NCBI GenBank assembly: GCA_002007365.1
Contig: LNZR01000022.1
Location: 1-38,825, forward strand
Direction of reading: 5' to 3'
Source: Epulopiscium sp. Nele67-Bin005
GTDB taxonomy: Bacteria; Bacillota; Clostridia; Lachnospirales; Cellulosilyticaceae
Length of the DNA: 38,825 nucleotides
Positions 34,157 through 38,825 of this stretch are shown here, piece by piece (positions within the stretch are counted from its first letter, which is position 1; every line of letters starts with the position of its first letter). A program made the position numbers and the translations under genes. Below the pieces are notes generated by a model. The model did no database searches and had not been told where the DNA came from. It saw only the letters and a program-made list of their open reading frames with translations.

Positions 34157-34189
34157 AAAAAATAGACCATATTTTATGGTCTATTTTTT
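34157..34189. terminator. Two-sided terminator between the Rpn gene and the paralog pair
   Basis: A 14-bp perfect stem (AAAAAATAGACCAT / ATGGTCTATTTTTT) with a 5-base loop. It is symmetrical, and the minus-strand stop codon at 34190-34188 overlaps its arm. Confidence 0.9.
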
Positions 34190-35078
34190 AGTTGCTTTCT
34201 AAAAGTTTTGTAAAATGTAAAATTCCTGAACGTAGCTCAATAACCTGATAAACAAATTCTTCGTATTGTTTGATAATTTCTGGGTTTGGGATTGGTTCGA
34301 TAAACCATGCAATACAACCATATACTAAAGTCAAAAATTCTAAAGTTTCATGAATAACTTTGCAATGTTCTTTAATTCCATCGCATTCTTCTAGCCCGTT
34401 TAACAAAACTCCCGTTGTTTCTTTATATTTTTGTAAAATAGCAAATGGCAATAAGTTTTCTGGAATTCTAACTACTAAGTCTGGGGGTAAATCTTGAATG
34501 TTAAATTCCTCTGCCAACGTTTCTGAAGTTGGGTCTGCATCTGGGTCATTTTTATAAGTCATTTGCAGAGCCACAAATTTATGAAGCGTTTCTATACAAG
34601 TTAATCTATCAAAGCAATTTTCGATAATTTGTGTATTTCCTTCTTGTAACCAATCAAATAAATATGCAAAGCTACTTTCTGCTGTAAAGAAGCTCATTTG
34701 CACAGTTGATATATTTTCAACAAAATCATCTATTTGCTCACCATAGCTATCTTTTACAAAATTATTGTAATCCTCTGTAACATAATAACCCATAATCATC
34801 AGTTCTTTGCTAAGTGTCATTACATAGGCTGTTAACTGAGCAAAATTTTGTAATTGAGCCTCCAAATATTCATTAAAAATTTCTGGGTCTGATTTGTTTA
34901 GTTGCTCTTTTAAAAAGTATTCTGGTGTAATAATAAACCACTCTAATGGGTACTTATCGAATAATAATTCAATATGTATATTACACCCCATCACTTCTTG
35001 TTTAAAATAATTTGCTACAGTTTTAATTCTATATTCTATAGGCTGTTTATTTAGGCTATTAAAATTTTGTTCGCTCAT
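34188..35078 (-). CDS. Unrecognised helical protein, paralog of the next upstream gene
   Basis: A 296-residue protein I cannot assign. It is all-helical by pattern, acidic and soluble, with no signal peptide or transmembrane helix. Landmarks are KYPLEWFI (about 44-51), KELMIMGYY (about 91-99), GEQIDDFVEN (about 112-121), IPENLLPF (about 206-213) and a late AWFIEPIPNPE segment. The same landmarks occur in the same order in the neighbouring 35105-35953 gene, so the two arose by duplication. His and Glu residues are spread through the helices, and a distant relation to the DUF2935-type bundle encoded 2 kb away is possible but unproved. The ATG follows AGGA; the gap from the upstream gene is 26 bases. 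Confidence 0.75.
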   Translation of the reverse strand: MSEQNFNSLNKQPIEYRIKTVANYFKQEVMGCNIHIELLFDKYPLEWFIITPEYFLKEQLNKSDPEIFNEYLEAQLQNFAQLTAYVMTLSKELMIMGYYVTEDYNNFVKDSYGEQIDDFVENISTVQMSFFTAESSFAYLFDWLQEGNTQIIENCFDRLTCIETLHKFVALQMTYKNDPDADPTSETLAEEFNIQDLPPDLVVRIPENLLPFAILQKYKETTGVLLNGLEECDGIKEHCKVIHETLEFLTLVYGCIAWFIEPIPNPEIIKQYEEFVYQVIELRSGILHFTKLLESN

Positions 35079-35104: not shown

Positions 35105-35953
35105 TTACGAAGCTTTATCCTCCATCAGCACACGAATATTTTTTCGCATAACCATTATTTGGATTATAAATTGCTCCGATTGTTTAATTTCCTTATTTTC
35201 ATCTATCGGATTTGTAAACCAAGATACCGCCTCTAGTAACTCTACCATCAAATTTAGTGTGTTTAATATTGTATGACAAGAGTCGCTAAGCTGTGGGACT
35301 TCCGATAATACCCCTAATATTAATTGTGCTGAGTTATTGTAGTGTGTAAAAAGTATAAATGGCAATAAGTGTTGTGGCACTGCTCTATAGGGTAGCTCGC
35401 TCTCATCTATTCCACTATTAATATACCCAAGTTGCTCTATTAAAAACTCATGAAATTCATTTACTACCAAAGTTTTATAGTATGTTTTTTCTGTAAATCC
35501 ACCCTTAATTTGTTCATCTAATGCAAAGTTTAAAAGGTTTGAAAAACTTTTTTCGGCTTTTGGCATCATAGTATCTATAAATTTTAATTCTTCTACAAAG
35601 TCGTCCACATGTTCCCCAGAAGTTTCTTTTATGTGGTTATTAAATTCACAAACTATATAATACCATGCAATCATTAACTCTTTTGTAACTAACATTAAAT
35701 ATTGTGTTACCTGCTTAAATCCCAAAAAGTGCATCTCCAAATGAAGTTTAAATTCTTCTGTATTTAATGGAGGTACGTCCACTACATCATAACTATCAAC
35801 ATATGTTACAAACATCTCCAAGGGATATTTTTCAAAAACTAAAGCAAGTTTCATACTCGCCTTTGCGTTGTCTGTTTGTAAATAATCAAAAAAAGCATTA
35901 CCTTTGTGTTCCAAATTAGAATTTTCAAATCTAATATAATTTGCACTATTCAT
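35105..35953 (-). CDS. Unrecognised helical protein, paralog of the next downstream gene
   Basis: A 282-residue acidic, helical, soluble protein without recognised domains. It shares KYPLEMFV (about 44-51), KELMIAWYY (about 90-98), GEHVDDFVEE (about 113-122), VPQHLLPF (about 197-204) and AVSWFTNPI with its downstream neighbour, in the same order and at near-equal spacing. A strong GGGGGG Shine-Dalgarno lies 6 bases before the ATG. It is first in a two-gene unit that ends at the two-sided terminator at 34157-34189. AT-rich DNA upstream contains a possible TATAAA, but no convincing -35. Confidence 0.75.
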   Translation of the reverse strand: MNSANYIRFENSNLEHKGNAFFDYLQTDNAKASMKLALVFEKYPLEMFVTYVDSYDVVDVPPLNTEEFKLHLEMHFLGFKQVTQYLMLVTKELMIAWYYIVCEFNNHIKETSGEHVDDFVEELKFIDTMMPKAEKSFSNLLNFALDEQIKGGFTEKTYYKTLVVNEFHEFLIEQLGYINSGIDESELPYRAVPQHLLPFILFTHYNNSAQLILGVLSEVPQLSDSCHTILNTLNLMVELLEAVSWFTNPIDENKEIKQSEQFIIQIMVMRKNIRVLMEDKAS

Positions 35954-36100: not shown

Positions 36101-36832
36101 CTATTTAGGATTAATTTTTGCGATTAGGCAATCTTTTCTTGCCCAAATTTCTTTATCTTTTGTCAAACACCAAGTTAGTACCCCATCGCATTCACTTTTT
36201 TTAGCAAATTTCTGGATTTTCTTTCGTCCAAACATACCCGTAACTTCATGAGTATATTCAAACAAAATATCACCCTTTTTTACAAAAGCTCCTTCTTTAA
36301 CCAACGTATCACAAAGCAATACATCATCAACTTTTAAGTAATAGGAGTCTTCCACATTTGCACGGCGTAAAGTCGCTGGGGATAGTACAAATTGACTTTT
36401 AAATACATCATCAGCCACAGTATTATACTGCAACATTTGCTGTAATTGTTCCTTGTGATGGTCTGCTAGGGGGCTTGCCAAAACTCCTTCTAACACTTGC
36501 TCACCAATTAACGCTTCACAAATATTAATAAATCGTATAGTTTTATACTTGAGTTCTTCGTCCTCTGGTATAGCTACAATATTTAAACGTCCTTTTTTCT
36601 TTGTAATTCTAAAAAATGAACCTTCAAATGCTATATTACAAGGAAAACTTGCCCCTTGATTATTTATATAAAAGCTCCATAGCAAAGCTGGTGCTAGCTC
36701 ACAATTTGCTACTGAAGTGGCCTTAGTAAATCGGTCTTTTGCCTTATAAAAATAATCATAAATAATTGCTTCATCATATAAAATCTTTACATTACAATCT
36801 TTGAGATTATTATAATTTAGGGGGTAAGTCAT
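36101..36832 (-). CDS. Unrecognised protein with a biotinyl/lipoyl-like domain; 5' end at the contig join
   Basis: A 243-residue open frame. Residues ~1-150 match nothing I recognise. Residues ~172-222 look like a biotinyl/lipoyl-type hammerhead: LVKEGAFVKKGDILFEY, then a turn and SECDGVLTW, the half-motif pair of HlyD, RnfC and lipoyl folds. There is no ExxK lipoylation Lys in the expected turn, so it is probably a structural or binding version. Six cysteines are present. No Shine-Dalgarno precedes the ATG at 36832, unlike almost every other gene here, and eukaryotic-type sequence begins within a few dozen bases. The true N-terminus is therefore likely lost at the join, and the first few codons may not be bacterial. 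Confidence 0.55.
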   Translation of the reverse strand: MTYPLNYNNLKDCNVKILYDEAIIYDYFYKAKDRFTKATSVANCELAPALLWSFYINNQGASFPCNIAFEGSFFRITKKKGRLNIVAIPEDEELKYKTIRFINICEALIGEQVLEGVLASPLADHHKEQLQQMLQYNTVADDVFKSQFVLSPATLRRANVEDSYYLKVDDVLLCDTLVKEGAFVKKGDILFEYTHEVTGMFGRKKIQKFAKKSECDGVLTWCLTKDKEIWARKDCLIAKINPK

Positions 36833-36856
36833 ATAATCTATTAGGTCGCAAATATC

Positions 36857-37805
36857 GTAGTGGCAATATGCCTCTCCAGTGACAGAGCTCTGTTGTGGAC
36901 CTTGGTGAGGCTCTGGGGTTGATATCCTCTCCGTCTGAAATGTTGCTGCACATCCACAGATTGAATGTGGAAATCCTGGTCAGAGTCACATATCCGTCTA
37001 AGCCTTTGAAGTTGTCCATAAGGAATATTTTTTACGAGCCATGGTGGATGAAAACCGTCAGCATGCAGTATGCTGTTTCAATCAGTAGCTTTCCGGAAAA
37101 TGGAGGTGTGCAAATATCTGTGATCATCTTTTGCGTTGCGTAGATCTGGAGCATTAATGGCCTGTTGGTCATATTTAATACTAAACTTCAGATTTTCACT
37201 TGCATTATTCACATAAGTGGGCATTCTAGGAGTTCTATATAACATCATCAACATATCTGCCCCACTGTACAATTTTTTCTTTGAAGAGGTTGTTAGAAAA
37301 AATATGTTCTTCCTACTATTGCATAATTATGTGCAAAACTAGCACCCATGGCCGAATCCTTTTTCTCGTCTATACGATTTATCTTTGAATGAGAGTCCAC
37401 TTTATTGCGAGTTGCACAATAAATCCATTAGGGAGCATAAGGTCATCAGGTCTGGACCTCAGATAATATCTCAAAGCCTCCAGACCTTCATCATGCATAA
37501 TGTTGCTGTGTGGGGACTCAATATCCATGGTAGATCTTATTTAGGAACCAATATTCTGTATTTGCTCCACTTTCTGTAGGACCTGATTGCTATCCTGAAT
37601 GTAAGAAGGCAGCTGTACAACAAATGGTTTGATACACAGTAAATGGATTCCTGCTCAAAAATCCAGTTGTTGGACATTGAGTAGTTCCTCAAGCTCTTTG
37701 TTCATGTGATCCAAAGGGTTTGATGGAGGCAGAGAGTAGTACTGAGTGTTCTCTAGTTGGCGCATGGCCTCTGTTTTATATTTATCCTTGCCCCATACAC
37801 AAACT
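36857..37805 (-). mobile_element. Decayed Penelope-like retroelement reverse transcriptase
   Basis: Minus-strand translation, through several stops and frameshifts, gives the reverse transcriptase motifs of Penelope-like elements in order. First comes a KYKTEAMRQLENTQYY segment (about 37,775-37,730), then KPFVVQLPSYIQDSNQVLQK, then motif A-like MDIESPHSNIMHDEGLEALRYYL (about 37,530-37,460), then MGASFAHNYA (near 37,350). These are followed by NLKFSIKYDQQAINAPDL, TSIFRKATD, LHADGFHPPW and PYGQLQRLRRICDSDQDFH, ending near SLERHIATT (about 36,857). Typical functional copies are intact over this stretch. This one has at least three in-frame stops and a deletion after the first motif, so it is dead. 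Confidence 0.8.
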
Positions 37806-37978
37806 TCTCCCCCAGTGTCTTCTTATTCCAAGATCAATTGTACAGACCAGAAAAGAGTGCAGCCATGGGTGCAAATTTTGCACCTAGTTATGCAAAGCTG
37901 TTTTTGGGAACAGAGCCATTGTTCAAATTACTTGCATGGACACTTCTGTTGTTGGCTCATGTCAAACCATGGCCGTAG
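37800..37978 (+). mobile_element. Second Penelope-like fragment in the opposite orientation
   Basis: On the plus strand a short frame reads LFQDQLYRPEKSAAMGANFAP followed by SYAKLFLG, the motif B region of the same reverse transcriptase family (compare MGASFAHNYA in the minus-strand copy). It lacks the flanking motifs and points the other way, so it is a separate fragment beside, or inserted next to, the first. Confidence 0.65.
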
Positions 37979-38825
37979 CTGCCAGCAGACCCTCCTCAGG
38001 AGAGGCTGATTGGCCCAGTCTGCTCTTGGTGCTTTCTCAAAACTTTCCGACTTTCAACCTGTCCAGACCGATCGCAGAGCACAACAAAAATGCTGAGCTC
38101 CTGTGATCAGGATGGGTTTAAACAGGCGAGAGATCAAATCCGTCAACAGACCTTAAGTTGCTGATTGACAACAGGAGTGCCTGTGTAAGTATTTTTTACT
38201 CTCAGTTGTATTGTTATTGTGGTATAATTTAATGATTTTATGCATGCTGTGTCTTTATTGGATAGTTAACTGACTGTGACAGACAACAAAATAACCTTTA
38301 TTTATCCACAATGTTATAAGTGTTAATGTTGAAAAAAGGATGATGGGAAATTGTCAAGAAAAGGGTCACACTGTCACTACACCGGCTGGCATTGTTGTTG
38401 TGGCTTGAAGTCACTACAGCCACCAGTAAATTTTTCCTGGCGGGAGAGGAAGAGAAAGAAACACAGGACACCGCACTACAAGAGTCTTTGAGATGAAAGA
38501 GATGATAAGGTAACGACGAATATTTACCTTTTTGAACTTTAACACTAAAGCGCCTGCTGGCCAACAGATGCTTCACTCACCTTACTTTACATTTATGAGG
38601 AACTCAGGGCACAGACAGTGTTAGAGAATAATTTCACTTGTCTATAGGTTAAAATTCCTTCAGCACAAGACATCCAGGACTCTGGTACTTCTTCTTTTCC
38701 TTCTCCGGCATCACTCCACATTCCTCCCTAACAGACAGGACATGTGAAAGGACGACTGAAGTTGGCATGAGGTGCCAGAGGAAAGCCAACAGATTATCGC
38801 CAGTCATGAGGAAACAAAACAGTGA

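Follow-up and report, generated by a model that had tools for sequence, protein, structure and literature searches.

A bacterial to vertebrate-like DNA join in an Epulopiscium contig: a technical artefact with counterparts at dozens of other contig ends

Penelope-like retroelements are defined by a reverse transcriptase (RT) plus a GIY-YIG endonuclease. The Epulopiscium family consists of giant gut symbionts of surgeonfish. Amplification by phi29 MDA is a described source of chimeric sequence: in a study of one E. coli cell, 495 MDA chimeras were recorded in 10.9 Mb of mapped sequence, and 85% of the described chimeras are intramolecular inversions (Lasken and Stockwell 2007, PMC1855051). These three subjects meet in the stretch of DNA analysed here (the window), which is the entire 38,825-bp contig C22 of an Epulopiscium genome (G000; 2.09 Mb in 90 contigs, 89% complete and 0.04% contaminated). 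Here, we describe the border between bacterial and vertebrate-like DNA in the window, the bacterial gene that is cut at this border, and the retroelement that lies beyond it. In addition, we compare the window with the other contig ends of the same genome and with related genomes.

Position of the join and the gene cut at it

The sequence-only reading of the window had described a switch, within a few dozen bases, from compact Firmicute DNA to vertebrate-like DNA. The composition of the contig bears this out: near the right end, compact bacterial DNA of low GC content gives way abruptly to vertebrate-like DNA that is non-coding. As a bacterial reference, 175 windows of the same size as the tail were taken from the bacterial part of the contig. 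The GC content of the tail (36,881-38,825) is 0.418 vs 0.282-0.370 in these windows; its longest open frame is 92 aa, against a bacterial minimum of 194; frames of at least 100 aa cover none of it, against a bacterial minimum of 0.44; and its TG/CA o/e of 1.36 lies above the bacterial maximum of 1.305. The CpG o/e of the tail, 0.32, is low, yet within the bacterial range. A two-state HMM run on the contig assigned positions 1-36,869 to the bacterial state and 36,870-38,825 to the vertebrate-like state.

The join, to which no strand is assigned, is located at 36,868-36,880 by two independent methods, namely the end of bacterial protein homology and the HMM switch at 36,869/36,870, and the sequence runs through it continuously, without N. 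The relatives of the border gene align from the motif E[IL]YCxxDxxELIDYLNYPL, which is matched in the window by the sequence EAYCHYDICDLIDYMTYPL; bacterial protein homology therefore reaches 36,868-36,874. The earlier interval of 36,810-36,857 for the join has to be moved accordingly, as it is wholly bacterial.

The border gene (36,101 to ~36,874, minus strand) is a 5'-truncated bacterial gene that encodes an Epulopiscium-family protein, with relatives that are 34-42% identical in family genomes. The full-length relatives are ~280-300 aa long, and the border gene is short of ~38-40 N-terminal residues that are present in all seven of the full-length relatives aligned. In several relatives an AGGAG-type Shine-Dalgarno sequence precedes the start codon, whereas the in-frame ATG of the window (36,832) has none. 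The proposal that this gene is devoid of a ribosome-binding site and has probably lost its true 5' end is confirmed by the alignment.

The missing 5' part was sought in the G000 assembly with a 60-aa query from a relative and with a profile, and the window copy alone was matched; a candidate on contig C31 (E=0.06) was rejected, being antisense to another gene. Synteny was also considered as a guide to the continuation, since thrS adjoins the border gene in the loci of five relatives; in G000, thrS lies in mid-contig beside infC, rpmI and rplT, and no continuation was given by it. Against Pfam, the border gene has a sub-threshold match to Biotin_lipoyl_2 and nothing above the cut-off. Its relatives in Epulopiscium genomes form a conserved family of proteins of ~280-300 aa (loci L005-L014), and where the genome is named it is that of Epulopiscium sp. 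or of Candidatus Epulonipiscium viviparus. Two adjacent genes on the minus strand, at 34,188-35,078 (296 aa) and 35,105-35,953 (282 aa), resemble paralogues of each other and adjoin the border gene.

A dead retroelement in the vertebrate-like tail

Beyond the join, the vertebrate-like tail extends from 36,870 to the contig end at 38,825, without an assigned strand, and is delimited by its composition, its lack of open frames and the HMM. From the composition, the type of the element described below and the biology of the host, we infer that the tail derives from the fish host. When the tail DNA was compared with phages, plasmids and the genomes of relatives, one weak match, in G009, was obtained and no other; it was rejected as a chance match, sitting inside the bacterial aroE gene.

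The tail contains a dead Penelope-like reverse transcriptase (36,922-37,840, minus strand), interrupted by stops and frameshifts. It was delineated by tblastn with a 765-aa ORF of the related genome G008 (C41, locus L248), which had been reached through a weak match of the RT fragment of the window in that genome. The ORF is intact and combines RVT_1 with GIY-YIG, its RVT_1 score of 29.2 bits being just below the cut-off of 29.6. Three collinear tblastn blocks are found on the minus strand of the window, at 37,840-37,736, 37,633-37,241 and 37,194-36,922, with E down to 2e-9, and these blocks confirm the dead retroelement fragments that had been noticed from the letters. The same RT motif recurs in a second fragment, MGANFAPSYAKLFLG, which lies in the opposite orientation at 37,802-37,909 on the plus strand (tblastn E=0.001), and an inverted repeat of 80% identity links 37,319-37,394 with 37,821-37,895. 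The raw RT fragments of the window have no match in Pfam, and the retroelement peptide has none among the genome and viral contigs searched.

The GIY-YIG part is not in the 2-kb tail, the element being severed by the join before that part is reached; the claim is therefore limited to an RT fragment related to Penelope-like elements and does not extend to a member element. In G008, contig C41 holds two matches 5.4 kb apart (L248 and L249), each within a 765-aa open frame; L248, the one examined, sits in a bacterial genome record (SCG-C07WGA).

Tails at other contig ends and in related genomes

From each end of the 89 other contigs of G000, 2.5 kb was taken (loci L038-L215), and the tails called by the HMM were strictly filtered. 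Terminal vertebrate-like tails are borne by 45 of these ends, on 38 of the 89 contigs, with seven contigs tailed at both ends. The median tail length is 1.5 kb, 11 tails occupying all of the 2.5 kb fetched, and the 45 tails total at least 75 kb. With the window included, vertebrate-like DNA at contig ends amounts to at least ~78 kb, or 3.7% of G000. Ten further HMM tails were discarded as doubtful, some of them being real bacterial genes (SpoIIIAH, GerA and collagen-like). Because dozens of other contig ends in the same genome bear similar tails, the join in the window is an artefact rather than a gene transfer, and is not a biological feature.

The tailed ends differ from the untailed ones in their place in the assembly. 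An exact terminal k-mer overlap was found for none of the 45 tailed ends vs 49 of the 123 ends that have no tail (Fisher p = 7e-9 when the window is added as the 46th tailed end), and the most frequent length of these overlaps is exactly 127 nt, as is typical of de Bruijn assembly. The tails therefore sit at dead ends of the assembly graph. By all-vs-all blastn they have few repeats in common and derive for the most part from different loci, and a search for an adaptor or linker shared by the joins returned only an 8-base ONT-like string, which is expected by chance. An open bacterial frame of at least 80 aa enters the join in 16 of the 35 measurable joins, compared with 70% for random window positions; this lower share may reflect imprecision of the HMM or low coverage of intergenic regions rich in AT. 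At one end of contig C25 (L149; C25:37,180-39,679), a vertebrate-like stretch of 1 kb with an inverted repeat (1,059-2,097 of the locus) lies between purE-side bacterial DNA and a cut GGDEF-like frame; this succession of bacterial, host and bacterial DNA is probably a double chimera.

Vertebrate-type sequence was also found in the records of two related genomes. One tail in G000 contains a LINE-type ORF, and its relative in G008 adjoins an endonuclease-like domain (below the Pfam cut-off) and an RT domain (above it). The relatives of the LINE endonuclease/RT and of the Penelope-like sequence of the G000 tails were found in G008 only. CA microsatellites are present in other G000 tails, and an exact (CA)15 is confined, among the 24 genomes of the family, to G000, G008 (SCG-C07WGA-EpuloA2) and G013 (SCG-B11WGA-EpuloA1); going by their names, the latter two are single-cell WGA genomes. 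The four other named relatives (G009, G010, G011 and G022) are devoid of (CA)15. Beside a CA repeat, G008 also has an open frame with DNA_pol_B_2, 535 aa long (L216; C4:4,499-7,528), a type that occurs in Polinton/Maverick elements, and this frame is possibly such an element of the fish.

Origin of the join and comparison with known systems

The join is almost certainly a technical chimera with host DNA, whatever the route by which it was formed. An assembly chimera or library artefact had been favoured from the sequence alone, and this view is now strengthened by the ~46 terminal tails, their position at graph dead ends, their origin from different loci and the parallel vertebrate-type sequence in two WGA-named genomes. 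As for the route, MDA in particular is the one that we consider probable. What was observed is a join at which a bacterial gene is cut short, a retroelement of vertebrate type beyond it, many similar tails at graph dead ends and the k=127 overlaps; from this, the following sequence of events may be proposed. Fish host DNA would have been present in the material sequenced for G000. This material would have been amplified, most likely by phi29 MDA of cells that had been sorted or picked by hand, and in the process a bacterial 3' end would have primed on a host strand and given rise to a hybrid molecule. Elsewhere such hybrid branches would have been dropped by the assembler, but where bacterial coverage ended inside the border gene, the hybrid would have been the sole continuation, and the contig would have continued into host DNA for 1,956 bp, up to the point at which host coverage also ended. 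A search for self-inverted contig termini as a mark of MDA found none; a de Bruijn assembler would collapse such termini. Given the predominance of inversions among MDA chimeras, this result may count to some extent against the MDA route.

The same kind of join could have been made without MDA: chimeras may form by ligation or PCR when an ordinary metagenome library is prepared, or the assembler may have connected two dead ends through a single hybrid read. We regard this as a distinctly less likely but serious alternative. It accords with the short-read de Bruijn signature (k=127) and with the richness of gut samples in host DNA. However, the metagenome bins G009, G010 and G022 are without (CA)15 while both WGA-named genomes have it, and 46 tails in a 2-Mb genome are many for an unamplified library.

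That fish DNA was really transferred into the chromosome of the bacterium is, by comparison, extremely improbable. In favour of this reading, the join is continuous and without N, and the C25 end offers a vertebrate-like stretch of 1 kb flanked on both sides by bacterial-like DNA. Under horizontal transfer, a bacterial flank would also be expected on both sides of the tail in the window, whereas the contig ends within that tail. Moreover, ~46 separate insertions would be needed, each of which stops exactly at a contig end and a graph dead end; the assembly yielded no match for the part that the cut border gene has lost; and the tail occurs in no other genome of the family, its lone weak match lying inside aroE. 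The reverse event, in which bacterial DNA was integrated into a fish genome, deserves no more credence: the seven contigs with tails at both ends look as an integrated bacterial fragment would, but the contigs together make up a bacterial genome that is 89% complete, is 0.04% contaminated and has long open frames, and most contig ends are untailed or are joined to other bacterial contigs. It is just as implausible that the many genome copies of a giant bacterium of the fish gut include true insertions of host DNA, a case in which polyploidy could shelter the broken genes in some of the copies.

The importance of the join, as a technical chimera, is one of data hygiene and not of biology. The contamination score of 0.04% missed foreign DNA amounting to at least ~3.7% of the genome, which marker-gene checks do not see. 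Comparisons of giant bacteria can be misled by such tails, through "eukaryotic genes in bacteria" and gene fusions that are not real and through genes that are cut short.

In relation to known systems, the tail of the window resembles Penelope-like retroelements in being collinear, over the RT, with the RT plus GIY-YIG ORF of G008; it differs from them in that the copy in the window is dead, is broken into fragments, is inverted in part and lacks the GIY-YIG part. The join itself is closest to the intermolecular chimeras of phi29 MDA (Lasken and Stockwell 2007, PMC1855051). It differs from these in that the partner in G000 is host DNA and that the join is known from contigs and not from reads. 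In both cases, unrelated sequences abut directly, with no linker between them, at arbitrary positions and many times per genome, and the likeness extends to the Epulopiscium family, in which the WGA-named genomes also hold vertebrate-type DNA.
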